Source: an uncultured Lachnospiraceae bacterium
Lineage (GTDB): Bacteria > Bacillota > Clostridia > Lachnospirales > Lachnospiraceae
Assembly: GCA_902779355.1 (NCBI GenBank)
Contig: CACZBF010000015.1
Span: 1 to 64,000, forward strand
Direction of reading: 5' to 3'
DNA: 64,000 nt
This document shows, in pieces, positions 29,069-56,024 of the stretch (position 1 is the stretch's first letter; every line of letters begins with the position of its first letter). The position numbers were made by a program, and so were the translations under genes. The notes beneath the pieces are model-generated. The model saw only the letters and a list, made by a program, of their open reading frames with translations. It did no database searches and was not told where the DNA came from.

Positions 29069-29072
29069 AAAC

Positions 29073-30881: not shown

Positions 30882-30895
30882 ATAATCCGCCCCGT

Positions 30896-30929
30896 GTACA
30901 TTGACAATTTCATACTTTACAGAGGGAAA
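30896..30929. repeat. Element A1, left boundary of cassette 1
   Basis: This 34-base sequence, from GTACATTGACAATTTC to AGAGGGAAA, occurs again without a single change at 49638-49671 and in diverged form at 36186-36219. Its centre TTCATACTTTACA is the reverse complement of the first half of the B hairpins. It lies 14 bases after the ATPase stop and forms the left edge of a segment carrying a toxin-antitoxin pair. Confidence 0.8.
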
Positions 30930-30964
30930 GACACCGAGCGCACTCATCGTATGAAAGAAAATGA

Positions 30965-30993
30965 TTGCAAATGGCATACACATCTGGTATTCT
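30965..30993 (+). promoter_or_regulatory. Promoter of the RelB/YoeB-type pair
   Basis: TTGCAA (30965-30970) and TATTCT (30988-30993) are 17 bases apart, 24 bases before the antitoxin ATG, with AGAGGAGG between. Confidence 0.5.
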
Positions 30994-31017
30994 GATGTCA
31001 GAAGAGGAGGTGAAACT

Positions 31018-31275
31018 ATGGCACAAGCAATGGTTAATTTCCGTATGGATGAGACACTAAAAGAGAAAATGGAGAAAACGTGCAAGGATATGGGACTGAC
31101 CGTAACGGCTGCATATACAATGTTTGCAACTAAAGTCACAAGAGAGCGGAAAATCCCTTTCGAAATTACAGCAGATCCTTTTTATAGCGATGAAAACATG
31201 GAGCGTTTAAGAAAAAACGTAGCTGAAATGGAGAGGACCGGCGGAACTGTACACGAGGTGAGTCTGAGTGATTAA
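31018..31275 (+). CDS. RelB/DinJ family antitoxin
   Basis: The 85-residue protein is a ribbon-helix-helix antitoxin: MAQAMVNFRMDETLKEKMEK as the DNA-binding strand and first helix, then GLTVTAAYTMFATKVTRERK. The C-terminal half would wrap the toxin. It starts at the ATG at 31018 behind AGAGGAGG; the open frame further upstream has no site. It overlaps the toxin gene by eight bases. The complex probably represses its own promoter. Confidence 0.85.
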   Translation: MAQAMVNFRMDETLKEKMEKTCKDMGLTVTAAYTMFATKVTRERKIPFEITADPFYSDENMERLRKNVAEMERTGGTVHEVSLSD

Positions 31276-31531
31276 ATCGTGGACGGATGATGCATGGGAA
31301 GAGTTTGAATACTGGACTGAACAGGATAAGAAAACACTCAGGCAGATAAAGAAGCTCCTTAAGGATATAGACAGGAATGGATATAAAGGAATAGGCCATC
31401 CTGAACCGCTTACCGGAGACCTTTCAGGATACTGGAGCAGACATATAGATGAAAAGAACCGTATTGTCTATAAGATTGAGGATGGTATAGTAAAGATTAT
31501 TCAATGTGGTTCTCACTATAAAGACAAGTAG
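31268..31531 (+). CDS. Txe/YoeB family mRNA-cleaving toxin
   Basis: The 87-residue protein is a YoeB-type endoribonuclease toxin: IKSWTDDAWEEFEYWTEQDK at the start, GHPEPLTGDLSGYWSRHIDE in the middle and IIQCGSHYKDK at the end, which holds the catalytic His-Tyr. The expected Glu, Arg, His and Tyr are all visible, so it should be active at the ribosome. It starts with GTG inside the antitoxin gene. The pair is the main cargo of cassette 1. Confidence 0.87.
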   Translation: MIKSWTDDAWEEFEYWTEQDKKTLRQIKKLLKDIDRNGYKGIGHPEPLTGDLSGYWSRHIDEKNRIVYKIEDGIVKIIQCGSHYKDK

Positions 31532-31575
31532 AATAAGATCGCCAAGGGATTTCAAACTGGCATGCTTGTATTTGA

Positions 31576-31725
31576 AAAATTTCCGGAAGAGAAGCAGGGA
31601 TAAAAGAGGGAATGCTCATATCTATCAATCATCTGATGAAAAATCTAAAATGCTCCTCAGAAAAGGCTATGGAAATTCTGGATATTCCAAGAGGTGATCA
31701 TAAGAAATATATGAAAATGCTCTAG
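31576..31725 (+). pseudogene. C-terminal remnant of an Rpn-type protein
   Basis: An open stretch without a start codon begins after a TGA at 31573 and reads GREAGIKEGMLISINHLMKN, then CSSEKAMEILDIPRGDHKKY and a stop at 31723-31725. Gly-Ile-Lys-Glu-Gly repeats followed by a short helical tail are typical of the C-terminus of Rpn/PD-(D/E)XK nuclease-transposases. An intact Rpn gene is the cargo of cassette 3, which links the two cassettes. The rest of 31532-31950 holds only the B1 hairpin. Confidence 0.6.
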
Positions 31726-31752
31726 ACACTAAATTTGATATTATTTTAACGG

Positions 31753-31798
31753 AACTCCCGATGTAAGGTATGAAATTGCTTTACGGAGGGAGTTTTTT
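31753..31798 (+). terminator. Element B1, terminator-shaped hairpin at the right edge of cassette 1
   Basis: AACTCCC (31753-31759) pairs with GGGAGTT (31788-31794); an inner GTAAGG/CTTTAC helix follows after a 3x3 internal loop, and six T close the element (31793-31798). It is shaped like an intrinsic terminator for the toxin operon. Its left half TGTAAGGTATGAA is the inverted counterpart of the A elements. Confidence 0.75.
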
Positions 31799-31950
31799 AA
31801 TTGCACTGTAGCAATGCATAAACGTAAGCGCAATAGAAAACAAATAAATTCATTTCCTATAGCTTACTTGTGCTAAAAAGGATGGGCTTGCGTTTTTTAA
31901 TCGGTCGGACAATGAATTAAAGTAATGAATTCAAGAAAGGATTTCAGAAA

Positions 31951-32544
31951 ATGGAACTTGACTGCCATGCGGAAACGTATTTTTCGGATATTTTATCTGC
32001 CTTGAAGCAGGCGATTTGTACCGATCTTTCTTTTTCGCAAATAGAGATGAACGAGGGCCTTTCGCGGTGGATAGAAAAAAGCGAGACGTGCCGCCGCGCA
32101 GAGGGATTCTTCTTTTTTTGCGGCAACGGCGCTTCGGCTACTATGGCGGAACATTTGTCTCATGACTGCTTTCAGAATGCGGATTTTTTGACGGAAACCG
32201 TATCAGAGACATCTCATATTACCGCCATCAGCAATGACCTTTCATATGAGGAGGTTTTTGCATATAGGATTAGCAAGATGATGAAGGATAAGGATATGCT
32301 GATTACAATATCCTCTTCCGGTAATTCGCCAAACGTCATAGGAGCCATTGAGGAGGCCAGAAAAAAGAGTGCTTTTGTTGTCACGTTGTCCGGCATGAGT
32401 GAAGGCAACAAATCACGAAAAAAAGGCGACTTGAACTTCTATATTCCACTGCAGACATATGGAATGGTGGAGTCAGCTCATGCAGTATTGTTACACTGCT
32501 GGCTTGATATGTATTTGGACAAGTATAAAGGAGGCCGGCATTGA
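31951..32544 (+). CDS. SIS-domain sugar-phosphate isomerase, GmhA-like
   Basis: The 197-residue protein is a SIS-fold isomerase like sedoheptulose-7-phosphate isomerase. Marks are FFFCGNGASATMAEHLSHDC (residues about 52-71), the phosphate-binding ISSSGNSPNVIGAIEEA (about 118-134), and a late VESAHAVLLHCWLDM. GmhA makes D-glycero-heptose-7-phosphate for capsular heptose. No heptose kinase is visible nearby, so a different ketose phosphate is possible. Its stop overlaps the next start. Confidence 0.8.
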   Translation: MELDCHAETYFSDILSALKQAICTDLSFSQIEMNEGLSRWIEKSETCRRAEGFFFFCGNGASATMAEHLSHDCFQNADFLTETVSETSHITAISNDLSYEEVFAYRISKMMKDKDMLITISSSGNSPNVIGAIEEARKKSAFVVTLSGMSEGNKSRKKGDLNFYIPLQTYGMVESAHAVLLHCWLDMYLDKYKGGRH

Positions 32545-33434
32545 TGAAGGTTGTGGTAGGCGCATCGACCTTTGCAGAGGCGGGGGATGCTGCACTGAGA
32601 TTGTTGGAAGAAAAAGGAATTGAGGTCATAAAGAATCCGTATCGGCGCAAAATGACGGAGGATGAGATCATAAAGCACCTACAGGGAGCGGATGGTCTTC
32701 TGGCTGGATTAGAGCCTATTAATGAAAAGGTGCTGACTTTAGCACCGGATTTGAAGGCGGTTGCGCGCATAGGCATTGGGATGGACAGCGTAGATATGGA
32801 GGCATGTGTTAGACATGGAGTGAAGGTGTCCAATACTCCTGATGCGCCAACGGATGCAGTGGCGGAAATGACGATCAGTGCACTCCTATCAATCAATCGC
32901 AGGATCGTGTCCTGTAATAGAGATTTGCACCATGGTGAATGGAAAAAACAGCTTGGTGTTTCGATGAGAGGACAGAGAATACTTGTTATAGGATATGGAC
33001 GGATTGGGAAAAAGGTGACAGCACTTCTTCGGATGCTGGGGGCGGATGTTTTGATATATGATCCGTTTCAGCCTGACGTATCGACAGAAAGCATCGAGGA
33101 GACGTTGAGAACAGTAGATGTGATTACACTCCATGCGGCAGGGAAAGAGACAATCCTGACAAGGGAAAGACTGGAAGAATGCAAACCGGGCTGTGTGATA
33201 TTGAACTGTGCAAGAGGAACCTTAATAGATGAAACTGCGCTATACGAGAAACTTCAGAGTGGAACCATAGCGTGGTTCTGGGGGGATGTGTTCCCAGAGG
33301 AACCATATAAGGGGAAATTGATTGAATGCGAAAATGCTGTTCTGACACCTCATATAGCAAGCAACACACGCGAATGCCGTCTGGCAATGGAACTGGAAGC
33401 TTCTGAGAATATTATACGGGATCTGGGACTATGA
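32544..33434 (+). CDS. D-2-hydroxyacid dehydrogenase, SerA-like
   Basis: The 296-residue enzyme resembles D-3-phosphoglycerate dehydrogenase: an N-terminal half with ARIGIGMDSVDMEACVRHG, the NAD-binding ILVIGYGRIGKKV (about residues 142-154), NCARGTLIDE with the catalytic Arg region, and the final LTPHIASNTRECR with the His. It lacks the C-terminal ACT part of true SerA. In this locus it may oxidise or make a 2-hydroxyacid for a polysaccharide side group; that is inference. The start overlaps the isomerase stop, with GGAGG upstream. Confidence 0.83.
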   Translation: MKVVVGASTFAEAGDAALRLLEEKGIEVIKNPYRRKMTEDEIIKHLQGADGLLAGLEPINEKVLTLAPDLKAVARIGIGMDSVDMEACVRHGVKVSNTPDAPTDAVAEMTISALLSINRRIVSCNRDLHHGEWKKQLGVSMRGQRILVIGYGRIGKKVTALLRMLGADVLIYDPFQPDVSTESIEETLRTVDVITLHAAGKETILTRERLEECKPGCVILNCARGTLIDETALYEKLQSGTIAWFWGDVFPEEPYKGKLIECENAVLTPHIASNTRECRLAMELEASENIIRDLGL

Positions 33435-34204
33435 AGCAGGAAATAAGTAAAGAGCTGAACCTTGCAATAAAGGCGGCCAGAAAGGCCGGTGCATTTCTTC
33501 GGAAAAAGGAAGACGTTCGTGTAGATTCGATGATTGGAAAGGATATCAAACTCTCGTCAGACAAGATGAGTGAAAAGATTATCCTGGATATTCTTGTGGA
33601 AACAGGGATTCCCGTATTGTCAGAGGAATGTGGACTACAAGACGGGAGTGTTGACACGGAGAACGAGAGATGCTGGATCGTCGACCCGTTGGACGGCACA
33701 ATGAATTATTACAGGGGCTTGGATGACCTTGCCTGTGTATCGATTGCGCTGTGGGAAAAGGACAAACCGGTACTGGGAGTCGTATACCGTTTTATGCCAG
33801 AGGAGCTCTACTTTGGGGAAATTGGAATGGGTGCATATATGAATGATCGAGAACTTCAGCCATCCGCTACAGAGCATATAGATCAGGCAGTGCTTGCTAC
33901 CGGATTTCCGGTGAAACGGACCTATGATGAGGAAAGCCTGAAACCCTATATAAAACGGACACAGCTTTTTAAGAAAGTGCGCATGCTGGGAGCAGCAGCT
34001 ATCATGGCAACATATGTACCATGCGGAAAGATTGATGTATATGAAGAAGATGGGATTATGCTGTGGGATATTGCCGGGGCAGTGGCAATCGCAAATGCAG
34101 CGGGATGTTCATATAGGATTGAACGTCAGAATGATTTCAAAGTGCATTGCCTTGTTTATGCCAATCATAAGCTGATGGAGGATTATGATGCTCAGAGCCT
34201 ATGA
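33431..34204 (+). CDS. Inositol-monophosphatase family phosphatase
   Basis: The 257-residue protein is an IMPase-fold Mg-dependent phosphatase. Metal motifs are SEECG (about residues 65-69), WIVDPLDGTMNYYRG (about 80-94) and MLWDIAGAVAIANAAG (about 215-230). Such enzymes hydrolyse sugar or inositol phosphates, 3'-phosphoadenosine phosphate or histidinol phosphate. The place in the locus suggests a sugar-phosphate intermediate. It overlaps the dehydrogenase gene by four bases. Confidence 0.83.
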   Translation: MKQEISKELNLAIKAARKAGAFLRKKEDVRVDSMIGKDIKLSSDKMSEKIILDILVETGIPVLSEECGLQDGSVDTENERCWIVDPLDGTMNYYRGLDDLACVSIALWEKDKPVLGVVYRFMPEELYFGEIGMGAYMNDRELQPSATEHIDQAVLATGFPVKRTYDEESLKPYIKRTQLFKKVRMLGAAAIMATYVPCGKIDVYEEDGIMLWDIAGAVAIANAAGCSYRIERQNDFKVHCLVYANHKLMEDYDAQSL

Positions 34205-35153
34205 TTATGCAGAAAAGCGCATGGACGACAGAATCAGGGATGCGCATGTCCTAAACGGGGAAAAAGAGATCGCGCTGAAGTATGTATTAGAGCACCCGAT
34301 TCAAAAGAACTGTCAGCCGTGTCCAATCTGCGGTTCACATCATACAGGCTATGTATTTGACATCTGGAATGTGGATTATCTGCGGTGCGTTGATTGCGGC
34401 AGTATATATGTGCCTGTAGATGATGACACGATGCAGGAATATAAAAATCTTGAGGAAATAAAGGAATTCAGAAGAGACAAGAATTATCAAAACCTGATCA
34501 GCGAAATAAGAGACAGTGCGTACGAAGAGAATATACGGTGGCTTCAATACAGGGCATACAGATATCTGGGGAGAAACAAGGATCTAAAAATCATTGATTA
34601 TGGGAATAAGTATCAAGGCTTTATAGATAAGATTAAAACCTCGGGGATGGCGTCGGAATATGAATTAAGAGAGTCTCCATTGCTTGAAGAAATCGAAACG
34701 GCACGGATAGATCATGCAGATATTGTCATCTCTATGAATCAATTACAGCATGAGGCAAATCCCCTTGATCTGCTTTGCAATTTAAGGGAGTCGCTGGATG
34801 ACAATGGCATATTGATCCTCAATACGAGATTGGGAAGCGGCTTTGATGTACTGACGCTGAAGGGGAGTAATGATGATATTTATCCATATGAGCATATCAT
34901 GTTGCCGTCCAAGCGGGGTGTAGAGATTGCTTTGGAGTCGGCAGGATATGAGCTTCTTGAGATTACTACGCCCGGAACCAGAGATATTAATGTCGTAAAA
35001 AGCAATGTGCGAAGATTGGGAGACGAGAATCTGTTTGTGCGATATCTGATGGATACAGCAGATGAGAAAATGCTGATGGATTTCCAGCAGTTCCTGCAGA
35101 AAAGTTGCCTCAGTTCGTTTGTCAGGCTTGTGGCAAGAAAGAAGGCAGCTTGA
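34188..35153 (+). CDS. SAM-dependent methyltransferase with N-terminal zinc ribbon
   Basis: The 321-residue protein has a zinc-ribbon-like N-terminal region (CPICGSHHTG and LRCVDCGSIYVP, about residues 44-78), then a class I methyltransferase fold, with HADIVISMNQLQHEANPLDL and GILILNTRLG as the late strands. The layout resembles sugar C-methyltransferases and similar enzymes of polysaccharide loci, but the glycine-rich SAM loop (IDYGNKYQGF) is weak. ATGs at 34185 and 34188 are both possible; the second is better spaced from GGAGG. The next gene begins at its stop. Confidence 0.68.
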   Translation: MLRAYDYAEKRMDDRIRDAHVLNGEKEIALKYVLEHPIQKNCQPCPICGSHHTGYVFDIWNVDYLRCVDCGSIYVPVDDDTMQEYKNLEEIKEFRRDKNYQNLISEIRDSAYEENIRWLQYRAYRYLGRNKDLKIIDYGNKYQGFIDKIKTSGMASEYELRESPLLEEIETARIDHADIVISMNQLQHEANPLDLLCNLRESLDDNGILILNTRLGSGFDVLTLKGSNDDIYPYEHIMLPSKRGVEIALESAGYELLEITTPGTRDINVVKSNVRRLGDENLFVRYLMDTADEKMLMDFQQFLQKSCLSSFVRLVARKKAA

Positions 35154-36175
35154 TGTGGCGTGACAGGAAGATACAAACTGCCATCATAGGAATGGGCAGG
35201 ATGGGGAAAACCAGATATGAAGCCATGGAACGCCATGGAGGGTATAAGGTCATATCTGTCTGCGATTCAAATCCGGATTATCTGAAAGGATATCAGGAAG
35301 ACACTTTTCAGGAGTGGAGAGAATGCATAGATCGCTCGGAGATAGATGCCGTTTTTGTGTGTACGTATAATGTGACCATACCGGATATTGTCTGTTATGC
35401 ACTGGAAAGAGGATTGTCAGTATTTTCAGAGAAACCTCCAGGCAGAAATCTGGATGATACTCTGCGCATGAAAAAGGCTTATGAAGGCAGTTCAGGAACA
35501 GTACTGAAATATGGGTTTAATCACAGATATCATAACTCTGTCATAGAGGCAAAGGCTCTCGTTGATTCCGGGATTTTGGGAAAAATCGTATGTGCACGCG
35601 GAGTGTATGGAAAAGCGGGTACGCCGGAATTTCAGACAGAGTGGAGAAATGACAGGGAAATTTCCGGCGGAGGAATCATGCTGGATCAGGGCATCCATAT
35701 GCTGGATCTGATGTATTACTTTTGTGGAGAATTTACAGACATACAGAGTACGGTGGATCAGCTTGTATGGAAAGATATGCCTACGGAGGATTCTGCATTT
35801 TCAATTCTCCGAACAGCGGATGGAAAGGTGGCATCGCTGCATTCCAGCGCGATCCAGTGGAGGCATAAGTTCAGTTTGGATCTGATATGTTCAGAGGGAG
35901 TGGCATCGCTGAATGGACTAATCACCTCGACAAACAGCTACGGAGAGGAAAAGCTCAGCTATTACCATAAGGATCTGGAGCAGAAGACGGGCGGACTTGG
36001 CAAGCCGATAGAACACACGATGTGCTTTGATGAAGACAATTCTTGGGATTATGAGATGGCAGAGTTCTATGATGCCGTTGTATATGGGAAACCTGTCAGA
36101 CAGGGGGCCATTGAGGACGCGGTAAATCTGATGCGTATGATAGAGGGAATCTACCATACAAATCAGGCAATATAG
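35153..36175 (+). CDS. Gfo/Idh/MocA family oxidoreductase
   Basis: The 340-residue enzyme has an N-terminal Rossmann fold (TAIIGMGRMGKTRYEAMERH) and the family motif FSEKPPGRNLDDT (about residues 90-102) with its catalytic Lys, then a substrate domain with GGGIMLDQGIHMLDLMYYF. It would oxidise or reduce a sugar nucleotide or cyclitol hydroxyl. It follows the methyltransferase with a one-base overlap and ends this part of the locus, just before element A2. Confidence 0.85.
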   Translation: MWRDRKIQTAIIGMGRMGKTRYEAMERHGGYKVISVCDSNPDYLKGYQEDTFQEWRECIDRSEIDAVFVCTYNVTIPDIVCYALERGLSVFSEKPPGRNLDDTLRMKKAYEGSSGTVLKYGFNHRYHNSVIEAKALVDSGILGKIVCARGVYGKAGTPEFQTEWRNDREISGGGIMLDQGIHMLDLMYYFCGEFTDIQSTVDQLVWKDMPTEDSAFSILRTADGKVASLHSSAIQWRHKFSLDLICSEGVASLNGLITSTNSYGEEKLSYYHKDLEQKTGGLGKPIEHTMCFDEDNSWDYEMAEFYDAVVYGKPVRQGAIEDAVNLMRMIEGIYHTNQAI

Positions 36176-36185
36176 ATACCGGAGA

Positions 36186-36219
36186 ACATTGAAAACTTCA
36201 TACTTTACATCGGGGGAAA
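36186..36219. repeat. Element A2, left boundary of cassette 2
   Basis: This is a diverged copy of the A element with the same core TTCATACTTTACA. Read on the minus strand it shares 19 consecutive bases (CCCGATGTAAAGTATGAAG) with the B2 hairpin at the other end of this cassette. It lies 10 bases after the oxidoreductase stop. Confidence 0.75.
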
Positions 36220-36290
36220 TGCACTGTATATTGAGAACAGTAGAGTTCTGCTAAAATGGATATGAAAGAAGTCTTGCGGAGGGAATAATC

Positions 36291-36662
36291 ATGTGCAGAA
36301 TGGCTACGATCATTATCAACGGCAGAACGATAAAGGTTGCCGATATCAAGGCGCGTTTCATCAAAAATATTGCAGATGCTGCGGCAGAGTGTGACTATAT
36401 AGACAAGGTTGTGCTGTTTGGGTCAAGCATTACGGAAAGAAGCACGAAGGATTCGGATATAGATATTGCTGTATTCGGTAGGCAATACAAATCAAAAGCA
36501 CTTATTTCCGCGAAGTATAAACGATTCACACATAAGGTGCGAAATTATGAAGATGGCACACAGGAATATGACATATTGTATTTTAAGTCAGATGGTAAGT
36601 ATCGCCCTATTATCCTGAACCGTATAGATGATGGGGAGGTGCTTTATGAGCGAAAACAATAA
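36291..36662 (+). CDS. MntA-like nucleotidyltransferase (antitoxin type)
   Basis: The 123-residue protein is a minimal nucleotidyltransferase: LFGSSITERSTKDSDIDIAV (about residues 43-62) carries the GS and the DxD metal site. MNT proteins pair with HEPN ribonuclease toxins and inactivate them by adding AMP. The HEPN partner follows with a 17-base overlap but carries a stop codon, so this antitoxin may now be an orphan. The start has CGGAGGG seven bases upstream; a second ATG lies three codons later. Confidence 0.83.
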   Translation: MCRMATIIINGRTIKVADIKARFIKNIADAAAECDYIDKVVLFGSSITERSTKDSDIDIAVFGRQYKSKALISAKYKRFTHKVRNYEDGTQEYDILYFKSDGKYRPIILNRIDDGEVLYERKQ

Positions 36663-37086
36663 GGCTGCAAGAATGGAACTGTCGCTGGCACAAATAGAGG
36701 CGGATTTGGTTGTTGCGTATCTCTCCATTCAGCGATCACAAACTGAAAAGAAGAAAATGTCTAAGTATATTCGCGGACAGGCGGGGTTTCATCTGCAACA
36801 AGCAGCGGAAAAGCTTATTAAATATCAGATGTACCGGTCAGGAAAGAAACTTGATTATGTAAAGGTATACTGACACAGTATCAGTAAGCTGATAGAGTAT
36901 GCAGATTCGCTGAATATCAATGTAATCATTCCAGATTATGTAAGGAAAAATGATGAAATCATTACAGATTGGGAAGCAGAGGGACGATATGATATGCATA
37001 TTGTTGTAAGATTGGACACCTTGAAGAAAGCGTACAATGAGATCAATAACTGGTATCAGGAATTGAAAAAGGTTTATAAGAAATAA
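36646..37086 (+). pseudogene. HEPN-domain toxin interrupted by an in-frame stop
   Basis: The first 75 codons read as a HEPN protein (GFHLQQAAEKLIKYQMYRSG). A TGA follows at 36871-36873, and the same frame continues for 70 codons as HSISKLIEYADSLNINVIIP and further to a TAA at 37084-37086. The stop falls just before the conserved His of the HEPN ribonuclease site, so the short product should lack activity. A single base change would restore the frame, so the loss may be recent, or the call at this base may be wrong. Confidence 0.75.
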
Positions 37087-37128
37087 GAACAGGTTTAGGA
37101 AAAATCATAATACAAAGTAGGAGATGGC

Positions 37129-37175
37129 AAACTCCCGATGTAAAGTATGAAGAATGCTTTACGCCGGGAGTTTTT
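37129..37175 (+). terminator. Element B2, terminator-shaped hairpin at the right edge of cassette 2
   Basis: AAACTCCCG pairs perfectly with CGGGAGTTT, then a 2x2 internal loop and a second helix GTAAAG/CTTTAC, with five T (37171-37175). It lies between the HEPN remnant and the ribosome site of the next glycosyltransferase gene. It is the inverted counterpart of A2. Confidence 0.78.
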
Positions 37176-37196
37176 GTTATTAGACAGGAGGACGAT

Positions 37197-40100
37197 ATGT
37201 TAGACCCGAAAAGAACAGCAATTTTATTCACTGCAAATACGCCACATTTGGCGCATGCTAATCTTATGATTGATTCTTTAAGAGACCCTCAAAAGGGAAA
37301 TTTTAAAGGCGATTTATGGGTTATTTCTACAGGATTGTCAAATAGAGCGAAGAATTATTGTGATTCAAACAATATTAATTTTTTTATTAGCGAAATGAGG
37401 GAACTTAATCATTGGGAAGGTAGGGAGATAATTGCAAGATCTCAACCAGAATACCAAAATGCATTAAAGAATTGTAGCGATGAAATTGCGCTTAAAAAGT
37501 CTTTTGAATCATATAGAAATAAAAGAATGTCAAAACTAATACTATTAAATTGGGTCAAACGATTCGGAGACAAATATGATTTTATAGCCCTAGGAGATAA
37601 TGACTTATACTTTCAAAAAGATGTTTATTATTTATTCAATGAAGCGTATACCAATGCTCCTGATAGGATATCATACAAACAAGAGGAAAACGAAATTGTA
37701 GTTGATAGCTGGATTTGGAAAAAGGATTTCCATTATAGCTTACTTCAAACAACATATGGTCTAGATTTTGGGAGACACGAAATTAATATTGGGTTTATTC
37801 TAGGTAAGCCATATGCATTGTATAGGTTGTTTATGACCGTTTATAAAGAGTTTCTTAATAAAAAAAATATAGATTTGTTTAGTAAGTATAATTGGCACGA
37901 TCAAGACTTGGTTAGGCTCTGTAGAGCTAAAAATCCAGATTGGTTTGATCACCTTTCGGAGGATGATATTATACATCTATGTAATGGTGGAGATAGTGTG
38001 ATAGAGGAAAATGAGATTATGACGTTTACCCATAAGAGGACTGGAAGGAAACCGTATATAATCCATTTTGCAGGAGGAGCATGGAAAAACTATGCAAGCG
38101 TAAAAACTACGTTTAACGTTGATCCGGGTATTTTTTTCTATAGGAATGAATCTTTAGAAGATTTTGACGAAATAAGAAAGAATAGTGCTGTAAACTTATT
38201 CAATTTGGATAACCCGGCTTTTTTTTCTGAAGGGAATATAAAAAGCAGAAAAAAAAATAGAAGAAAATGGATGAAAGCTTATAATAATGGGAAAAAGAAT
38301 GTTCTATTGATAGGATGGTTGGATATTCCCACGCATAAGAGCTTTATTGATTATTTGATGCCATTTATTCAATCTGAACTTTTTAATTTAGCAATCATAA
38401 ATGGGAATATTAAAGAAGAATATAGAGATGATGTTGTATGGGAAGATATGCCAAAGTGTTTATCAAGTTTGACGAGCAGAATTTGGGATGTTAATTTTGC
38501 GCGGACTTTTGGATATAAGGATGCTCAGATTCCGGAATGGATTGTTGAGAATGCTATTAAATCATTAATGGATGAGTATAGATGCCCTGAACGAAATGCC
38601 AGAGCAATTACTACAATTCTCTTTTCTTTTTATAATGAAACGCTAGATTTCTATAAGCCAGATGTGGTTCTTTATTTATCAGTTACAAATCCGCTTGGAA
38701 AGTTAATGGAGCGCTTGTGCCGGTGGAAGAAAATACCAATAGCTGACTTGGAATGGGGAGTATTGCCAGGAACTATGACATTTGAATTTAGTGGTCATAT
38801 GGCTGAAAGCTGGGTTGGAGATAATAAGGAATTTTTCAATCAGTTGCCTATAGATAAGAACGATTTGGTATTGGCTGAAAAATATATAGAAATAGCTTGT
38901 GATGAATCTTTGAATAGAAATAAGATAACTCATATAGAGTATGATACAGAGTTTTATGTGGATCTAAAATCCCAAAAAAAGATCATTCTGTACTTGGAGT
39001 CTAACAATGCTGCTAGCGGCAATACAGATATAGATGAAGAGAGAAGAAAAAAGCATTCTCCTTTGTTTTATGATGATAAAGATGCATACAAGTATATTGC
39101 GAATCTATGTGAAAAGAATGATGACTGGCATATCTTATATAAGACACATCCGATTTCAATAACCAGAGGATTAGATGTTGAGATAAATGAAGATAACACA
39201 ACTGTGATTTGGTCGGGTAGCATATATGATTACCTGCCATATGCAGATGTTGCCATGACTTTGGTGTCTCAAAGCGCATATCTAGCCTTGTTACGTGGCA
39301 TTCCCACAGTAATGCTTGGGGTTAATCAGATAAATGGAAGTGGGGCGGTTTATATCCCTGAGTCAAAGAAGGATATAGAGAAAATCGTAAATAGTGCTCT
39401 TGAAAATGGATTTGATAGTAATAAAAAGAGCTGTTTCATAGCACATATTGCGAGACTACTGAAATACTATCTTTTTTCTTATGAACCCAAGATTGGGTAT
39501 AGAAACATTTCGAACATGGCGGATGCTTTTCTATCCATAATAAATGGATGCCAAATGAATTATTATTGTTTTGAAAGACAGTCATATGAACTAATGGCTT
39601 GTGATAAAGACAATGCTAAAAATAAGGCGCTGCCAATCGTCTCGGTTATTATACCAGTACATAATTCTGAATTATTTTTATCTGAAGCAATAGCGTCTAT
39701 AGTTAATCAATCGTTGAAAGAAATTGAAGTGATTTGCGTTAATAACGGTTCTGTGGATGATTCCCAGGATATTTTAGAGTATTGGGCATCAAAGGATGAC
39801 AGAATAAGAATAGAATCATGTGTGGAATCTATAACGGCCGGAGTTCCAAGAAATATTGGTCTAAAACTAGCCAAAGGAAAGTATGTCTATTTAATGGATT
39901 CGGATGATATTTTGGAAAGAGAGGGTCTTGAAAAATTACTAAAAGTTGCCGAAGACAATAACTCAGATTTGGTCTATACATTTTTTAAACAAGTGGAAGC
40001 GAAAATCTCCAATGATATGCCTAGGCCAAGATTTTATAACTATAAGCACTATCTGCCTGATGCGTATTCCTATAAATTGGAGCGAGACCATTATCGTTTT

Positions 40101-41500: not shown

Positions 41501-41504
41501 TACA

Positions 41505-43316: not shown

Positions 43317-43360
43317 GAACCAGAGTTGGTTGAAACGGATAAAAAACTATAGGGAGAAAT

Positions 43361-43771: not shown

Positions 43772-43836
43772 TCGCTTTTGGTCGTACTGTACCGATAATT
43801 GTTGATGGTAAGACATAAACTGTGGAGATAGAAAGA

Positions 43837-44304: not shown

Positions 44305-44996
44305 AAAAAATAATCATTATGATCCCGGCAAGGCTGGGGTCTAAGCGGATACCAAAGAAAAATATTAGATATATGCAGGGAAAGCCACTGATACAGTATC
44401 CGATAGACATAGCCAAATCCGATTCAAGGGATATGGAAATATGGGTAAATACAGAGGATGAACGACTTGGGACGATAGTCACGGATATGGGAGCGAACTT
44501 TCACAGGAGGCCAAAGGAATTGGCTGGTGACACAGCCACAAATCGGGATTTCACCTACGAGTTTCTGCGGATGCATCCCTGTGACTATGTGGTGATGCTC
44601 AATACCACATCCCCGCTTCTTAGACAGGAAACTTTTGGACAATTTATCGATAAGATCATAGATTCGGATGCTGATACGATACTGTCGGTTGTGACGGAAA
44701 AAGAGGAGACATTTTATCAGGGAGAGCCGTTAAATTTTTCGTTGAATGAGAAGATCAACAGTCAGTTTCTGCCGTCCACACAAAAGATTGTTTGGGCGAT
44801 GACAGGGTGGAAACGGGATACGTTTATGAGATTGCAGGAACAGGGAGAGAACCCGGTGTTTGGTGGGAAGATAGTGCTGTTTGAAGTGCCGAAAGATGAG
44901 GCGTGCGATTTGGATACGGAGGAGGATTGGAAGATTGCAGAAGGCATTTTACAGTCCCGTTCAGAAACGCATACTCCAAAGTATTTGGAGCTGTGA
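44301..44996 (+). CDS. NeuA-like cytidylyltransferase
   Basis: The 231-residue protein is of the acylneuraminate/Kdo cytidylyltransferase type: IIMIPARLGSKRIPKKNIRY at the N-terminus (CTP-binding) and VVMLNTTSPLLRQETF (about residues 98-113). It activates a 2-keto sugar acid or related sugar as a CMP derivative. NeuB and NeuC are not in the window, so the substrate may not be sialic acid. An AGTATG start with GGAGG is clear and overlaps the YhcH stop. Confidence 0.83.
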   Translation: MKKIIIMIPARLGSKRIPKKNIRYMQGKPLIQYPIDIAKSDSRDMEIWVNTEDERLGTIVTDMGANFHRRPKELAGDTATNRDFTYEFLRMHPCDYVVMLNTTSPLLRQETFGQFIDKIIDSDADTILSVVTEKEETFYQGEPLNFSLNEKINSQFLPSTQKIVWAMTGWKRDTFMRLQEQGENPVFGGKIVLFEVPKDEACDLDTEEDWKIAEGILQSRSETHTPKYLEL

Positions 44997-46507
44997 CAAA
45001 TAAACAGAATTTTAATATGAATGAAAACGATAACTCCAAATGGGAAAGCATCAGTAGACCGCGCCAGGAACTCATAAAGCTTGGAAACAGGCTGGGGATT
45101 ACAGACAAGCTGGTTGTCTTGAAGCGGCTGATCCTGAATCAGGGTGCTGTTCGCGAAAACACCGTTAGAATTGATGAACTATTCCAAAAGCCTCTGGATG
45201 AGTGGAAAGAGCAGGTCAGAGAAGCGAAAAAAAAGCATAAGCCGTACACTCTTGTGGTGGGGGATGTTGTTGGTTTTGACAAGGGGATCTGTCATTATTT
45301 GAATACCTTGTCTGAAAGCATACATGGCACGGATTTTTTATTGCTGTCGGAAGCAGAGAATCAGAATGGAAAGATTGATTTCAAAACAATCATCGTCCCG
45401 GACTTTCTTATCAGAAGGCGTAAAGCCCCTTCTCCAAATGTGATTGCCACCCATGAAATACTTGTCTTTTTGGAACGCCGAACCGCATTGAAGTGGTGCG
45501 TTTCAAATTATTTGGGACAGAACAAGGATCTGACTTTGGACGATGCCGTAGTGTGGACATATTATTCGTATCATGTGGCGGAATATTTACTTGATCAACT
45601 GAAACCACAACAGGCGATCCTCTGGAATGTGTTTTATGACTTTCATCATATCATGGATTGGCTCTGCAGGAAGAAAGGGATCCCAACTATATATATGGAG
45701 TTCGGATCGATTCCGGGTACATTTTCTCTTGAAAAAAACGGTCAAATGGGGCGGAGTTATCCGGGAATTCATTCGGCGGAGTTTGCAAATCTTCCAGTCT
45801 CAAAAACAGATCTTTCAAAAGCGGAGGAAGTCCTGAGGTATCTCAGGGAAACGCGTCTGAATCGAAATAGTCAGCCACAAAACGATAATATAAATGTGGT
45901 GAAAGGTCGACTGGAAGTCGGAAGACCGACGATATTATTTGCAGGATGCAATGACTATGAAAGCGGAATCTATCCATATACGAGAGAGTCACGGCAGCAA
46001 TCCCCAGTGTTTAAAAGCAGCGATGAGGCAGTACAGTTTTTGTCTGAATTGGCGAGAAAGCATCGTTGGAATTTGATATACAAGCCGCATCCCATAGTAG
46101 TGTATCTGGAACGCGTTAAGCCATGCGATGAGGGAATCATCCGTATAGATGATGTTGACATTAATGAGTTGATTGATATTTCAGATGTAATCGTTACCAT
46201 TGTGTCGCAGGTATCCTATATCAGCTTAATCAGGGAAAAGCCCATATGTATGCTGGGATATACACAACTGAGAGGGAAGGGATGTACATACGAAGCCTTT
46301 TCCTTGCGTGATGTGGAAACGGCGCTGGAAAAAGCAGTAGAAGATGGCTTTACATCCGATCAACAGGTAAAGTTTCGGAAACATACGGCACAGATGCTGA
46401 AATACAATCTGTTTGATGATTTGACCGACAAAGGCAGGAAATTTGGGCAATCTATGGAGAGAGCAGTTCATTTTTTAGAAGACGCATTGAGCGTTCATGG
46501 AAAGTAG
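44993..46507 (+). CDS. Capsule-synthesis GT-B-like transferase
   Basis: The roughly 504-residue protein is a single-domain relative of the central part of the 37.2 kb protein. Shared marks are GIPTIYMEFGSIPGTFSLEK, NLIYKPHPIVVYLERVKP and VTIVSQVSYISLIREKPICM (about residue 400). It resembles capsule polysaccharide transferases of the Kdo-transferase/GT-B kind. The start is uncertain: a GTG at 44993 overlaps the NeuA stop, and an ATG at 45017 lacks a ribosome site. Base use is less A+T-rich than between 37 and 44 kb. Confidence 0.72.
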   Translation: MTNKQNFNMNENDNSKWESISRPRQELIKLGNRLGITDKLVVLKRLILNQGAVRENTVRIDELFQKPLDEWKEQVREAKKKHKPYTLVVGDVVGFDKGICHYLNTLSESIHGTDFLLLSEAENQNGKIDFKTIIVPDFLIRRRKAPSPNVIATHEILVFLERRTALKWCVSNYLGQNKDLTLDDAVVWTYYSYHVAEYLLDQLKPQQAILWNVFYDFHHIMDWLCRKKGIPTIYMEFGSIPGTFSLEKNGQMGRSYPGIHSAEFANLPVSKTDLSKAEEVLRYLRETRLNRNSQPQNDNINVVKGRLEVGRPTILFAGCNDYESGIYPYTRESRQQSPVFKSSDEAVQFLSELARKHRWNLIYKPHPIVVYLERVKPCDEGIIRIDDVDINELIDISDVIVTIVSQVSYISLIREKPICMLGYTQLRGKGCTYEAFSLRDVETALEKAVEDGFTSDQQVKFRKHTAQMLKYNLFDDLTDKGRKFGQSMERAVHFLEDALSVHGK

Positions 46508-49500
46508 GATGATTTCAATAATAGTACCGGCGTATAATGCACAAAAAACGATCAATAGGTGTTTGGACAGCATTCTGGCACAGACTTATCGTGATTGGGA
46601 ACTTCTTGTAGTGGATGACGGATCCGATGATACCACCGCTTCAATTGCGCAAAAGTATACGGACACAGATAAGAGGGTAAAGGTCATACGGCATGAGTCG
46701 AACAAAGGACTGTTTGCAACACGTATCACCGGTGTAAAAAAAGCCAGCGGTGAGTATATCGGTTTTGTGGATAGCGATGACTATTTATCATCAGATTACT
46801 ATCGCCTTTTGGTCAAAAAGGCAGCAGAAGAAAACTCCGATATCACGATCGGAGATTTTTTTCTGGAATACCCAAATGGTAGAAGAGAATACTATAATAA
46901 TGATCCGATTAGGAATCAATGCATAAACCTGTCTGGTGATGCAATCATGGACACGTTTATGACGCAGGCAGGGGCTTTCTATGGGTGGCAGCTAGTATGG
47001 AACAAGCTATATAAAACGGAATTGTGGAAAAAGTGCCTGCCGGAGTTTGAATGCTTTTCAGATGCGCATCCCCATCTTAATATGACGGAAGATATGGCTT
47101 TTTCGGCACGGCTATGGTGCAATGCAACTAGAGTAGTAAATGCAGCAAATGCCGTATATTTTTACTATCGTTCTGATGCGCAGATGACGGATGAAATAAA
47201 GAATCTGTCCTCGAATAAAAAGAAACTGAAAGATGTAGAGGCCGCTTTTGCTTTCTTTGAATCGAGCCTGCATGAGGCGGGAGTTATGGAAAGATATGAA
47301 GCCTGTTTTAACATGTGGAAGCGAAGATATGGATTTCTCTATAGGAATCTTTTTGATAGATGTCCGGAGGTCTTGTCACATATAGATAAGGATCTTATCG
47401 GTGTGCGTCAGGATGATGCGGGTGAAGCAAAAAGCACGTATTATTATAACCTCGTTACAGAGGATTCAAATGAATGGGACGAACTGGAAAGGATCAAAAC
47501 CACAATCGCAGATGAGCTGACAAAGGTTGTCAGCTTTGATGTGTTTGACACGTGTCTCATCAGACCATTCCTGCATGCGACGGATTTGTTTGCATTTATG
47601 GATGGATTTTTTGCAGATATTACGTGTGCAGTCTCTGCAATCGATTATGAGGGAATAAGAGTTGAAAGTGAACGATTAGCCAGAGAAAAATGCAGAGGAA
47701 GAAGAGAGGACATTACGATAGATGATATTTTTACAGTAATGTCAGAAAGATATGGAATTGATGCGGATATATGCGCACAACTGAAAGAAAAGGAAACGGA
47801 ACTGGAACTGCGCTTTTCGAAACCTAGAGCAATGGCGAAGGAACTATATGATTTGGCTGTTGATATGGGGAAAACTATCGTTTTTACTTCGGATATGTAT
47901 CTGCCGAAAAAAACGATAGAGCAGATGCTAATTAAGAATAGCTTTACTTCCTATTTTGATATTTTTGTGTCTGGAGAAATGGGAGTGGCAAAGTATAGTG
48001 GTAATCTTTATAAAGCTATGATAAAGCGCCTTGGTGTTGAGGCCGGCGAGATTATTCATATAGGAGATAACCTGCAATCTGATGTTGACACACCCGGAAG
48101 ATTGGGAATTAAAGCATTTCATATGCAGTCGGTGAAGGATTGCTTTATGAAGTCATCCTATTGGCAAAAGAATGTCCTGCATACTGCAAATGACAGGGAT
48201 CTATGGTGGACAATGAAGGGATATATCGGATATCGTACCATGCTTGCAATGGCGGCAAATCGAGTCTATGACAATCCGTTTATTCCGTATCATGAATTGT
48301 CGGATTTTAATGCATCGCCACTTGAGATCGGCTATTTTGTTTTGGGAATGTATTTATATGCAGTGTGTGACTGGCTTGTAAAGGACATTCGAGAAAGAAG
48401 AGAAAGACCGCGCAAGGTTCATTTCGCGGCGCGAGATGGCTATCTGGTTGAGGAAGCGTATAAGCTGTTTTCTAAAATATATGATTTGCCCGTATCAAAC
48501 TATTTGTATGTATCCAGAAAGGCACTTTTATTTTCGAATATCAGAACAAAAATTGACATGCTGTCCATCATAGACAATTCAAATATATACAACACCAGCC
48601 CGGCTCAGCTTCTGGATATGCTGAGTATGGGCTTGGAAAAAGGGGATGTTGAGGAAGTAAAAAGCATTTTTGAAAATAAGAATATAGAATTTGATAAACT
48701 CTTTCAATCTCGTAACCAATACGAGGATTTTTTGAAGGTATTTTTGGACGAAATATATGACAGGGTAAACTGGGAAAAAGTAAGGGAGCTATCGAAAGAG
48801 TATTTATCGAAAAATGTGTCGCCAGAGGATGTGCTTTTTGATATTGGTTATAGCGGACGCGGGGAATGCGTTATGTATAATCTCCTTGGTTTTTCTCCGG
48901 ATTCCTATTACATCCATACCAACTCTGATGTGATATGTCGTAGACAGGATATAGCCGGATTCAAGAATAAAACAATGTATGGGTATAAGCCGGATATAAC
49001 GGGAGTGATACGAGAATATGTTTTTATGAAAAATGCCCCGTCGACAATTGGATATCGGAGAAATGAGAATGGAGAGGTAGAACCGCTTTTTGAAGCACAT
49101 CAAAGCAATTTTACGGCGACATATACGAACGGTCTGCTACAAAAATATGCGCTTGAATTTGTCGCCGATATGATAGAAACATTTGGTGAGGATTTAGCAC
49201 ATCTATACTATAGGTATGAAGATGCGACCCAACCATTTGAATACTATTTGCATCATGGGACTCTTTTTGACAGAAGCATTTTTTCTGATCTGGAATTTGA
49301 AGACGACTTTGGAGCGGGCGAGCGGATCAAGGTGATAGATTTTTGGAATAAGGAACTGAAGCGGGTGAATTATTACTGTACGACAGAATTAATAGAACCG
49401 CCCAAGAATGCATATGAGACCTATGTTGATGATGGAGTGATTTCCAAATCAGTCCTACACAAGGCGGTGTATTGGCTGAAGAATGATAAAGCTTTTTTTG

Positions 49501-49550
49501 TAAAAAGAATGAAGGATTACCTTTCGGGAAATCGGGAGGGGAGAGTGTAG
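46497..49550 (+). CDS. GT2-HAD-RDG/VDxGW three-domain protein
   Basis: The 1017-residue protein joins a GT2 domain (MISIIVPAYNAQKTINRCLD, IGFVDSDDYLS, about residues 1-230), a HAD-type domain (VVSFDVFDTCLIRP at about 343, FTSDMYLPKK, HIGDNLQSDVDTPG), and the third domain also found at 27.2 and 50.9 kb (VHFAARDGYLVEEA at about 641, YVSRKALLFS, LFDIGYSGRGE at about 779). The HAD part keeps both Asp of motif I and the motif IV Asp. It may add and process a phosphosugar in one polypeptide, which is inference. An ATG at 46509 is an alternative start. Confidence 0.78.
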   Translation: MESRMISIIVPAYNAQKTINRCLDSILAQTYRDWELLVVDDGSDDTTASIAQKYTDTDKRVKVIRHESNKGLFATRITGVKKASGEYIGFVDSDDYLSSDYYRLLVKKAAEENSDITIGDFFLEYPNGRREYYNNDPIRNQCINLSGDAIMDTFMTQAGAFYGWQLVWNKLYKTELWKKCLPEFECFSDAHPHLNMTEDMAFSARLWCNATRVVNAANAVYFYYRSDAQMTDEIKNLSSNKKKLKDVEAAFAFFESSLHEAGVMERYEACFNMWKRRYGFLYRNLFDRCPEVLSHIDKDLIGVRQDDAGEAKSTYYYNLVTEDSNEWDELERIKTTIADELTKVVSFDVFDTCLIRPFLHATDLFAFMDGFFADITCAVSAIDYEGIRVESERLAREKCRGRREDITIDDIFTVMSERYGIDADICAQLKEKETELELRFSKPRAMAKELYDLAVDMGKTIVFTSDMYLPKKTIEQMLIKNSFTSYFDIFVSGEMGVAKYSGNLYKAMIKRLGVEAGEIIHIGDNLQSDVDTPGRLGIKAFHMQSVKDCFMKSSYWQKNVLHTANDRDLWWTMKGYIGYRTMLAMAANRVYDNPFIPYHELSDFNASPLEIGYFVLGMYLYAVCDWLVKDIRERRERPRKVHFAARDGYLVEEAYKLFSKIYDLPVSNYLYVSRKALLFSNIRTKIDMLSIIDNSNIYNTSPAQLLDMLSMGLEKGDVEEVKSIFENKNIEFDKLFQSRNQYEDFLKVFLDEIYDRVNWEKVRELSKEYLSKNVSPEDVLFDIGYSGRGECVMYNLLGFSPDSYYIHTNSDVICRRQDIAGFKNKTMYGYKPDITGVIREYVFMKNAPSTIGYRRNENGEVEPLFEAHQSNFTATYTNGLLQKYALEFVADMIETFGEDLAHLYYRYEDATQPFEYYLHHGTLFDRSIFSDLEFEDDFGAGERIKVIDFWNKELKRVNYYCTTELIEPPKNAYETYVDDGVISKSVLHKAVYWLKNDKAFFVKRMKDYLSGNREGRV

Positions 49551-49637
49551 GAGTCTATCGCAGGGGACATGTCATTCCGCAAATGTATTGTTTAACATGC
49601 CCCGCGCCACGAGGACGAGTGCTCTGCCCCCCACGTT

Positions 49638-49671
49638 GTACATTGACAATTTCATACTTTACAGAGGGAAA
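49638..49671. repeat. Element A3, left boundary of cassette 3
   Basis: This sequence is identical over 34 bases to element A1 at 30896-30929, although 18.7 kb apart. It ends six bases before the 3' end of the Rpn gene. The 90 bases between the preceding gene and the element show nothing else. Confidence 0.8.
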
Positions 49672-49677
49672 AAGAGA

Positions 49678-50589
49678 TTATGCTTTTTTATCCGCAAGCT
49701 GCTTCTCGAGTTCTGCAATGCGGGCGTTGGCATCGGCAAGCATATTATTTTTGTCAGCAAGCTCAGCGTCTTTGTCAGCAAGTGCAGTGTTCGCGGCATC
49801 CAGCTTGGCGGTCACCTCGTCTCGCTCTTTTTTTGCCTCATCAAGCAGTTGCTGTACATCGAGCTCGTTGCGAATGGTATCCTCCCGGGCTTCCAGTAGT
49901 TGGCGCATATGTTCGTCTGCAGAGACTTTACAAATGGTTTCTCCAACTTCCTCCAAAATGGTTTCAGGTATCGAGAGCATTTTGAATTCCTCCCAAGTCG
50001 TGGATTTGAAGAGTTGAGCCCATTGGTCGATCTTATAACGGCGATCCTCTTCTGTAGCAAGATCTATCTTTGTTAAGTCTACCACAGAAATGCTGAGTTT
50101 GTCAGTATAGATTTGATGCGTACGCTTATTCATAAGCATGTTGACAGCATAAAATTCCGGGGATTCGGGAAACAGTGTATAGCCAAGAAAGCCGATCTGA
50201 TAGGAGGGCATCACTCGCAGGTAGCCCTGACCGGATTTGAGACTTGTGTAATTCCGGCAAAGATAAAAAGAAGAACGTTCAATCCAATTGCCTTTGTTTA
50301 CCACTTGCATTTCCAAATCAAGGAGAGCGCCATTATTGAGGAGTACCTTGACGTCGAGGATGACCGTCTTATCATCAATCACTTCACCGGGCGTGATGGG
50401 GTTTTGTACGATGGCGGATTTTATGGCGCTCTCATCCAGATGGAGCAGTGCACAGATCAGACCGATCAATACATGGTTTTTTTCCTGAAGAACGGTTTTG
50501 AACATAAAGTCATTCATCATGTTGAAACGAATGGAACCCGTCACAGAAGCGAGAAGTGGATGTTTGTCGAAAGAATGATTTTTGGACAT
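49678..50589 (-). CDS. Rpn-family PD-(D/E)XK nuclease/putative transposase
   Basis: The 303-residue protein is of the Rpn (recombination-promoting nuclease) family. FNMMNDFMFKTVLQEKNHVL is near the N-terminus, and the nuclease core VILDVKVLLNNGALLDLEMQ (about residues 75-94) carries the Asp and the Glu-x-Gln of PD-(D/E)XK enzymes. The C-terminal 65 residues are a repetitive coiled coil (ADKDAELADKNNMLADANAR). RpnA-type proteins cleave DNA and stimulate RecA-independent recombination. The start has AGGAGG. It is the only cargo of cassette 3 and faces the polysaccharide genes. The 230 bases upstream to B3 hold nothing clear. Confidence 0.83.
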   Translation of the reverse strand: MSKNHSFDKHPLLASVTGSIRFNMMNDFMFKTVLQEKNHVLIGLICALLHLDESAIKSAIVQNPITPGEVIDDKTVILDVKVLLNNGALLDLEMQVVNKGNWIERSSFYLCRNYTSLKSGQGYLRVMPSYQIGFLGYTLFPESPEFYAVNMLMNKRTHQIYTDKLSISVVDLTKIDLATEEDRRYKIDQWAQLFKSTTWEEFKMLSIPETILEEVGETICKVSADEHMRQLLEAREDTIRNELDVQQLLDEAKKERDEVTAKLDAANTALADKDAELADKNNMLADANARIAELEKQLADKKA

Positions 50590-50820
50590 GAGTATACCTC
50601 CTGAAATGAAATAAGATTTGAAAAAGGGATCGTTTGCCGAACGGCAGATCGCTTAAGATGTGTGTATCATAGCACACCGGAAATCGAATATGCAATGAAG
50701 AGAATATAAAATCTTTCTAAAGAATTTCTAAAATCCGGGACAGGATGGAACCGGATGTGCTATCGTCCAAGAGATGCTTTTTCTATCGGGGCGGATTCGG
50801 ATATTAGTATAGTCGGGCAG

Positions 50821-50866
50821 CTCCCTGTGTAAGGTATGAAATATGACTTTATACAGGGAGTTTTTT
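50821..50866 (+). terminator. Element B3, hairpin overlapping the next ribosome site
   Basis: CTCCCTGT (50821-50828) pairs with ACAGGGAG (50853-50860); an inner GTAAGG/CTTTAT helix with wobbles extends it to 14 base pairs, and six T follow. The GGGAG of the right arm is also the ribosome site of the gene starting at 50868. The hairpin could therefore stop transcription or hide the ribosome site. Confidence 0.75.
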
Positions 50867-50867
50867 G

Positions 50868-55979: not shown

Positions 55980-56024
55980 CTCCCGATGTGAAGGCGAAAG
56001 AATGCTTTCCATCGGGAGTTTTTT
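55980..56024 (+). terminator. Element B4, terminator after the chemoreceptor gene
   Basis: CTCCCGATG (55980-55988) pairs perfectly with CATCGGGAG (56010-56018), followed by six T. The layout and several bases of the loop (GAATGCTTT) are shared with B2, so it belongs to the same family, but I find no A element on its left. Here it looks simply like the terminator of the upstream gene. Confidence 0.8.

Follow-up and report, generated by a model that had tools for sequence, protein, structure and literature searches.

The window analysed here, 64,000 nt of contig CACZBF010000015.1 from an uncultured Lachnospiraceae bacterium (GCA_902779355.1), carries a run of plus-strand glycan-type genes that holds three short cassettes (Table 1). 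Each cassette consists of an upstream bracket (A), cargo, and a downstream bracket (B) that folds as an intrinsic-terminator hairpin complementary to A. This A-cargo-B arrangement is real and recurrent beyond the window, and we lean towards reading it as an inserted guest cassette whose terminator would sense where a transcript began. The initial annotation had described A and B as inverted copies of one repeat and had placed them correctly to about 3 nt; one B indeed stands behind each of the three A copies. A 13-mer search with up to two mismatches gives seven matches in the window against a shuffle mean of 1.24, with none of 100 shuffles reaching seven; the matches are the six A/B sites and an unpaired one at 28604. 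On the plus strand, each B copy folds into a hairpin with a T-run behind it (z = -5.5, -6.3 and -7.3), and the three A copies show no fold (z = +0.35, -0.65 and -1.0). The best A-B complementarity is 87% over 23 nt in cassette 1, 19/19 nt in cassette 2, where A2 contains a perfect 19-nt complement of B2, and 90% over 21 nt in cassette 3. A GGGAG motif within the B3 3' arm may serve as the Shine-Dalgarno sequence of the next gene. A B-like terminator hairpin also occurs at 55980-56023, downstream of a putative chemotaxis-receptor gene (name by reading); no A was found upstream of it (best score 9.2 against a shuffle mean of 9.2 and a largest shuffle score of 12.8). B-type stems may be drawn from the ordinary terminators of the genome.

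The three cassettes carry different cargo. RelB and YoeB domains in adjoining open reading frames (ORFs) identify a type II toxin-antitoxin (TA) system in cassette 1, in which the true start of the RelB ORF probably lies downstream of the cassette promoter. Cassette 2 holds what is probably a TA pair that has lost its toxin and in which the MntA-like antitoxin gene is still open, and the cassette 3 ORF has an Rpn-type PD-(D/E)XK domain. Of the cargo named in the initial annotation, RelB/YoeB, the MntA-like protein and Rpn are supported by Pfam. The HEPN match is weak and its gene is interrupted by TGA, and the Rpn remnant of cassette 1, recognized by eye, is unconfirmed, with no database match and no BLAST hit against the cargo set.

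Table 1. Brackets, cargo and promoters of the three cassettes, in window coordinates.
Feature	Position	Strand	Remarks
Host run of glycan-type genes	25138..52895	+	Holds all three cassettes; gene names mostly by reading
A1, upstream bracket	30895..30929	+	14 nt beyond final base of ABC-transporter ATPase gene
RelB-family antitoxin ORF	30961..31275	+	Pfam PF04221, E 1.2e-11
Likely sigma-A promoter, cassette 1	30965..30993	+	TTGCAA, 17 nt, TATTCT; by eye; just downstream of A1
YoeB-family toxin	31268..31531	+	Pfam PF06769, E 1.7e-32
Possible Rpn C-terminal remnant	31597..31725	+	Directly before B1; by eye, likeness to Rpn C-terminus
B1, intrinsic-terminator hairpin	31755..31798	+	5' arm and loop complementary to A1; 74.7 bits (B1 is among the covariance model's four sequences)
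A2, upstream bracket	36183..36217	+	8 nt beyond final base of Gfo/Idh-type gene (name by reading)
Likely promoter, cassette 2	36204..36232	+	-35 TTTACA inside A2, 17 nt, TATATT; by eye
MntA-like nucleotidyltransferase antitoxin	36291..36662	+	Pfam Polbeta/NTP_transf_2, E 9.5e-11
HEPN-like toxin gene	36646..37086	+	In-frame TGA at 36871-36873; first piece a weak HEPN match, E 0.018, below cut-off
B2, terminator hairpin	37132..37175	+	72.4 bits; next ATG 22 nt beyond T-run
A3, upstream bracket	49637..49671	+	35 nt identical to A1
Rpn-family PD-(D/E)XK nuclease/transposase	49678..50589	-	Pfam PDDEXK_2, E 1.6e-33; antisense to operon
B3, terminator hairpin	50821..50864	+	66.6 bits; start ATG (50868) 2 nt beyond T-run

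A covariance model of B built from four copies, together with sequence profiles of A, recovered two further pairs elsewhere in the same genome, both on contig C5. The first (A 95902, B 96571), also recovered by exact match, lies downstream of a gene read as a CDP-glycerol glycerophosphotransferase and encloses a BrnT toxin (Pfam E 4.7e-25); the small ORF after the toxin gene matches no antitoxin model. The second (A 99898, B 100304) encloses about 370 nt with one ORF that matches no Pfam model. All five A copies found by the A profile across the genome at E<=0.01 have a B, and seven of the eight exact copies of TTCATACYTTACA lie within pairs, with one solitary copy on contig C1. The whole-genome listing proposed in the initial annotation yields five pairs.

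The arrangement recurs in other members of the family. Among 397 Lachnospiraceae genomes searched with a seven-copy A profile, 46 have matches at E<=0.01, many of the weak ones resembling chance. Strong A matches accompanied by B, among those read, occur in G234, G279, G406 (two), G139, G223, G393 (two in tandem), G396, G166, G288 and G267. In the congener G003, an A-B pair surrounds a gene that Pfam does not name and that is 44% identical (E 1e-64) to the cargo of another cassette, and at a contig end in G048 an ORF read as Rpn comes after an A. When 12 positions of the A pattern may carry transitions, it gives 18 matches in 11 of the 397 genomes, and the reversed pattern gives none. A pattern scan of GTDB genomes gave at least 117 stretches; among the matches listed, on which all figures of this wide scan are based, 107 are titled Lachnospiraceae or genera assigned there, and the remaining ten include an Oscillospiraceae entry, a Bacteroides bin and titles of broader groups. 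A first set of 80 loci contains 86 distinct A copies, 84 of them with at least 150 nt downstream. A matching B, defined by a duplex score >=14.5 and a hairpin of <= -15 kcal/mol, follows 61 of these 84. The same criterion is passed by 4 of 252 stretches after dinucleotide shuffling and, among real stretches taken from upstream of A, by 9 of 81. Of the 23 A copies with no B, the DNA behind A is shorter than 1.7 kb in 17 and reaches the full 2.9 kb in six. The A-B gap ranges from 96 to 2882 nt (median 1289). The other 37 loci, used as a hold-out after the model had been formed, add 36 distinct A copies. Of the 34 that have sufficient sequence behind them, 31 have a B, and the three misses have less than 300 nt downstream. 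Five loci (L218, L224, L228, L271 and L315) have A-B pairs only 96-467 nt apart with little or no cargo, mostly between polysaccharide-type genes, and brackets may outlive their guest. At L261, an A stands directly before a gene with neither cargo nor B behind it, possibly as a solo bracket.

Cargo is mostly oriented with the host operon: the longest ORF between A and B has operon sense in 56 of 59 cases in the first set and 29 of 31 in the hold-out, and two of the 61 pairs lack any ORF of 40 amino acids. A domain scan of 56 cargo proteins from the first 80 loci, with three antisense cargo ORFs set aside, gave AAA_35 (17), AAA-ATPase_like (14), PDDEXK_3 (13), Transposase_31 (11) and PDDEXK_2 (7), families that overlap, as well as aspartyl protease (2) and ParE toxin (1). 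These counts indicate that TA cargo is uncommon outside the source genome. Part of the cargo matches PADLOC models, mostly of unnamed candidate systems. The two aspartyl protease matches are to retroviral-type families (PF13975/PF13650) and, judged by motif, probably belong to L277 and L327. Flanking proteins were available at 46 of 58 sites on the upstream side and at 53 of 58 on the downstream side; among the families listed (25 of 58 and 25 of 63, respectively) are GDPD, cytidylyltransferases, CDP-glycerol transferases, LicD, glycosyltransferases, epimerases and other polysaccharide-type functions, along with radical SAM and Cas12f1-like domains. The polysaccharide setting noticed initially in the window thus extends to other genomes, in which A-cargo-B often stands among genes of this type. 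Automatically picked neighbours lie on the same strand upstream in 51 of 58 cases and downstream in 54 of 58.

Movement by Rpn, which the initial annotation had considered possible, finds no support in these distributions: many cassettes lack both PDDEXK_2 and Transposase_31, and four of the five PDDEXK_2 genes of the source genome are not at an A site. A and B are also rejected as a general feature of Rpn genes. Of 60 Rpn regions, 55 were usable, with an intact frame and sufficient flanking sequence; in these, complementarity of a gene's own flanks exceeds that of swapped flanks only slightly (10.6 vs 10.0, p 0.026). Some Rpn genes have repeats of other kinds. At L158, L159 and L172, in three other genomes, a different inverted repeat of 13-15 nt (core GAATTCCTC or GATTCCTC) occurs just before the start codon and again 127-170 nt after the stop, possibly as a second 5'-3' pairing arrangement. 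At L117 and L148, Rpn genes are flanked by inverted copies with the core GAACCGTCC or similar, which we take to be reminiscent of repetitive extragenic palindromic (REP)-type repeats.

Promoter positions would divide transcripts into those that include A and those that do not. In 38 of 56 leaders between A and cargo, a sigma-A-like promoter outscores 95% of mononucleotide shuffles (p<0.05); the spacing is 17 nt, the value favoured by the score, in 48 of 56. The cargo -10 box lies 38-136 nt from the start of the A pattern, so that the cargo transcript should begin after A; in several cassettes, the TTTACA of A is itself the best -35 of the cargo promoter. A was rejected as a complete promoter: it begins with TTGACA, but by eye no -10 box stands at 17 nt. 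Between B and the next gene, such a promoter occurs in only 4 of 34 stretches, and the next start codon lies no more than 45 nt past the T-run in 22 of 52 cases. With few promoters after B and start codons close by, the next gene seems often to depend on transcription through B.

Pairing between A and B is predicted to be stronger than the terminator that it would replace. The predicted A:B duplex has a median of -33.5 kcal/mol compared with -23.6 kcal/mol for the B hairpin, and is the stronger structure in 54 of 60 pairs and in 29 of 31 hold-out pairs. A therefore has the properties of an antiterminator strand: it is complementary to the terminator 5' arm, its pairing covers that arm and the loop, and the resulting duplex is predicted to be more stable than the terminator. 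Mismatches were counted at duplex positions 5-24, in a register fixed by the search pattern. Read as sense RNA, the 61 pairs have 102 G-U mismatches compared with 15 of the A-C/C-A type. Where A has a fixed T, B has G in 54 of 366 cells, and where A has a fixed A, B has C in 6 of 366; in the B loop alone, which was taken as free of hairpin constraint, the corresponding figures are 46/183 and 3/183. The original pairing score gave G-U a small bonus. Scoring G-U as a mismatch both in choosing and in accepting pairs changed little (62 pairs, 103 G-U vs 16). The excess persists in cluster representatives, with 60 vs 12 (37 pairs), 41 vs 8 (24) and 28 vs 6 (16), the last from 75%-identity clusters (loop 14 vs 3). 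It also occurs in twelve pairs found by profile rather than by pattern (25 G-U vs 6) and in the hold-out (36 vs 6; loop 18 vs 0). Neutral transitions in DNA ends should give equal numbers of both mismatch types, and the G-U excess therefore argues for RNA pairing rather than transposon ends. Cognate duplexes reach -32.3 against a permuted mean of -28.0, the lowest of 5000 permutations being -29.7. In the A tail, which lies outside the search pattern, matches to the own B average 3.80 of 8 compared with 2.72 when permuted, the highest of 2000 permutations being 3.26. The tandem cassettes at L219 (G393:C3) have different cores, and taken jointly their cognate A-B duplexes are the stronger ones.

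These properties bear directly on the interpretation offered in the initial annotation, a small mobile unit with terminal inverted repeats. In its present form, A and B would be the ends of a non-autonomous element with nuclease or TA passengers, moved by a transposase in trans (e.g., of IS1182 type), and the B terminator would be incidental. Part of this interpretation stands, as the block behaves as one unit with differing cargo and, at one site, is present or absent as a whole. There, a clean empty site was found: in Butyrivibrio G439, the stop of a GDPD gene abuts the start of TagD and the whole block is absent, and G234 and G487 hold the block there as an insert of 35-36 nt plus A, cargo and B. 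A second empty site was not found for the YAB3001 cassette (Butyrivibrio sp.), whose downstream gene matched only 1 of 79 genomes, the same record. The sharp outer edge of A also favours mobility, with a conserved GNACC (G 82, A 81 and C 83 of 85; hold-out G 31, A 30 and C 31 of 31), as do the several genomes with at least three A copies and some low-scoring A matches at contig ends, where repeats are found. The part that fails is the equivalence of the ends. A DDE transposon or miniature inverted-repeat transposable element has conserved tips at both outer borders; B lacks the outer edge of A, its positions opposite GNACC are near chance, its loop length varies, and no conservation extends beyond its T-run in the aligned pairs. 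Differences between A and B are also directional. At A positions 8, 9 and 12, C occurs in 3 of 54 cells (transitions allowed) compared with G at B in 46 of 183 (Fisher p 0.001, from different genome samples), which argues that A and B are not interchangeable copies, and the wobble bias is not expected of DNA ends. An element of about 1.8 kb in G303 (L236:9593-11382), which we take to be IS1182-like, has transposase-like ORFs and 33-nt perfect inverted ends that resemble A at 20 bits, and is set between inverted copies of CATGATGCTGGGGTCAAAA (19 nt). This resemblance is suggestive, but at E 0.002 per genome about one chance match is expected in 397 genomes, and transposon ends were not accepted as the source of A. 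Other low-scoring A matches were set aside, by reading, as chance: those at L226 and L227 fall within coding genes, and those at L230 and L231 precede a gene of conjugative-element type. RNA pairing between A and B explains more than mobility does; mobility is partly right as a description of the block, and as the full explanation of A and B we consider it unlikely.

We propose that A-cargo-B is a guest cassette for nuclease, ATPase and TA genes, inserted in operons that are often polysaccharide operons, and that its insertion would leave the genes behind it switched on. B would be an intrinsic terminator in the operon direction, and A a 30-nt upstream strand able to pair with its 5' arm and loop. 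Transcripts from the cargo's own promoter would lack A, so that B would fold and stop them, insulating the operon from its guest. Host-operon transcripts would carry A, which would capture the B 5' arm; no terminator would form, and the polymerase would run on through the following gene. Termination at B would in this way depend on the starting point of the transcript. The proposal draws on computed features: the pairs, their complementarity, the wobble signature, promoter positions, neighbour strands, the terminator fold and one empty site. Complementarity, promoter positions, neighbour strands and duplex stability together fit an origin-sensing terminator, and on this sequence evidence we hold read-through by A:B pairing to be somewhat more likely than not. 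We infer that pairing in the cell would be fast enough over 0.1-2.9 kb and would cause read-through.

Several observations weigh against this origin-sensing terminator. The cargo of cassette 3 is antisense, so B gives no insulation from it, and A:B pairing over 1-2 kb must beat local folding of the hairpin. Cognate preference is weak within genomes (-29.8 vs -27.5 in the source genome, and none in seven of eight other groups with two or three pairs), which suggests that A could also act on other B copies. Tail covariation in the hold-out is modest (3.42 vs 2.75, with 1 of 2000 permutations as high), and related sequences are not independent. B was sought only downstream of A, so the A-then-B order is built into the count, and the real stretches upstream of A that pass the pairing test may be explained by neighbouring cassettes. 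Two of the 61 pairs, both at L298, overlap and their assignment is uncertain. One of the six A copies that lack a B despite 2.9 kb behind them also lacks cargo. The conserved GNACC of A pairs with nothing at B. A general antitermination system could also read through B without A. At L216 (G162:C70), an ORF with a NusG domain (LoaP-like) lies upstream of an A with ATPase-type cargo next and no B found, and a link between A and NusG paralogues is possible.

Such a general system would make B a terminator of the cargo only, with the host reading through by processive antitermination of the LoaP, EAR, conAn or canT type; A would then either bind a factor or be a relic. LoaP acts in antitermination in polysaccharide operons, and the NusG-domain ORF in G162 and the conserved A bases that do not pair with B are consistent with a role of this kind. 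Like EAR, put and LoaP, the A-B device would act by antitermination in long operons. EAR and put are antitermination RNAs in the passages available (PMC8955417, PMC11658703), and EAR works in exopolysaccharide operons (PMC8955417). Unlike these RNAs, the A and B copies searched have no Rfam match: none reaches the gathering score in 128 kb from 8 sources (not all described RNAs are in Rfam), and none reaches E<=1 in window positions 30700-37400. No NusG-like ORF was noticed by eye among the window ORF starts listed, in which no domain scan was made. Complementarity of A to its own B over 20-26 nt, and a tail that covaries with B outside the search pattern, are hard to reconcile with A as a mere binding site or relic, and we regard processive read-through without A:B pairing as improbable. 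More doubtful still is a long-range helix that RNase III or another RNase would cut to free guest from host mRNA, as ribosomal RNA (rRNA) leader-trailer helices are cut by RNase III in the passages available (PMC10250234), since a wobble-biased helix of about 20-26 bp across 0.1-2.9 kb would suit it but the retention of B as a terminator with a T-run, pairing that ends at the end of the B loop, and cargo promoters located after A would be left unexplained.

The cargo is of known kinds; the bracket architecture was not found described. In attenuators and riboswitch antiterminators, mutually exclusive structures compete for the 5' arm of a terminator, and the competing strand is usually close by; A would likewise compete for the 5' arm, but from 0.1-2.9 kb upstream across a gene. 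The closest parallels lie in systems that pass terminators selectively. In Tn916, the terminator T1 insulates inserted genes and a cis-acting RNA, canT, lets chosen transcripts through (PMC11658703), a combination that A-B would share. According to the passages available, work on canT used a 452-bp fragment, and canT acts processively and on heterologous terminators too, in the service of the element (PMC11658703); A, in contrast, is 30 nt long, matches a single terminator by complementarity and would work for the host operon. In pLS20-type conjugation operons, the conAn system uses a protein and an RNA factor at the operon start to pass more than 20 terminators (PMC8955417). There, as proposed for A-B, transcripts of one promoter pass internal terminators at which others stop, and an internal promoter can own a terminator; unlike A-B, the passages available describe no one-to-one complementarity (PMC8955417). 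The rRNA leader-trailer helices also pair complementary strands across at least 1 kb and bracket a transcribed unit, but as described in those passages they serve processing and assembly and the trailer is not a terminator arm (PMC10250234). As far as these passages show, none of canT/T1, conAn or the rRNA helices pairs one upstream strand with one terminator on the far side of an inserted gene. Escherichia coli rpnC, between panC and panD, is an Rpn gene introduced into a host operon (PMC5350276), as in the cassettes here; unlike them, it comes with no mention of an 'inverted repeat' in the main text of that source. No description of such brackets was found in titles and abstract openings of the open-licence literature, which is weak evidence of absence from print.

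We judge the chances to be even that these brackets represent an unreported class of cis-acting RNA: a two-part, long-range antiterminator flanking guest nuclease, ATPase or TA genes, in which one terminator treats guest and host transcripts differently and polarity is thereby avoided. This reading would explain in concrete terms how extra genes settle in a long operon without silencing those downstream, and what stops a guest promoter from leaking into it. If the mechanism is true, it would be a portable two-part device, with a terminator that distinguishes transcripts by origin. Variation in polysaccharide loci is often tied to phage contact, and A-B pairs offer a sequence mark by which guest nuclease and TA cassettes in such loci can be found. 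With a device of this kind, defence-like cassettes could lodge in operons without polarity, and the pairs, which recur across Lachnospiraceae, would be usable as a tag for them.

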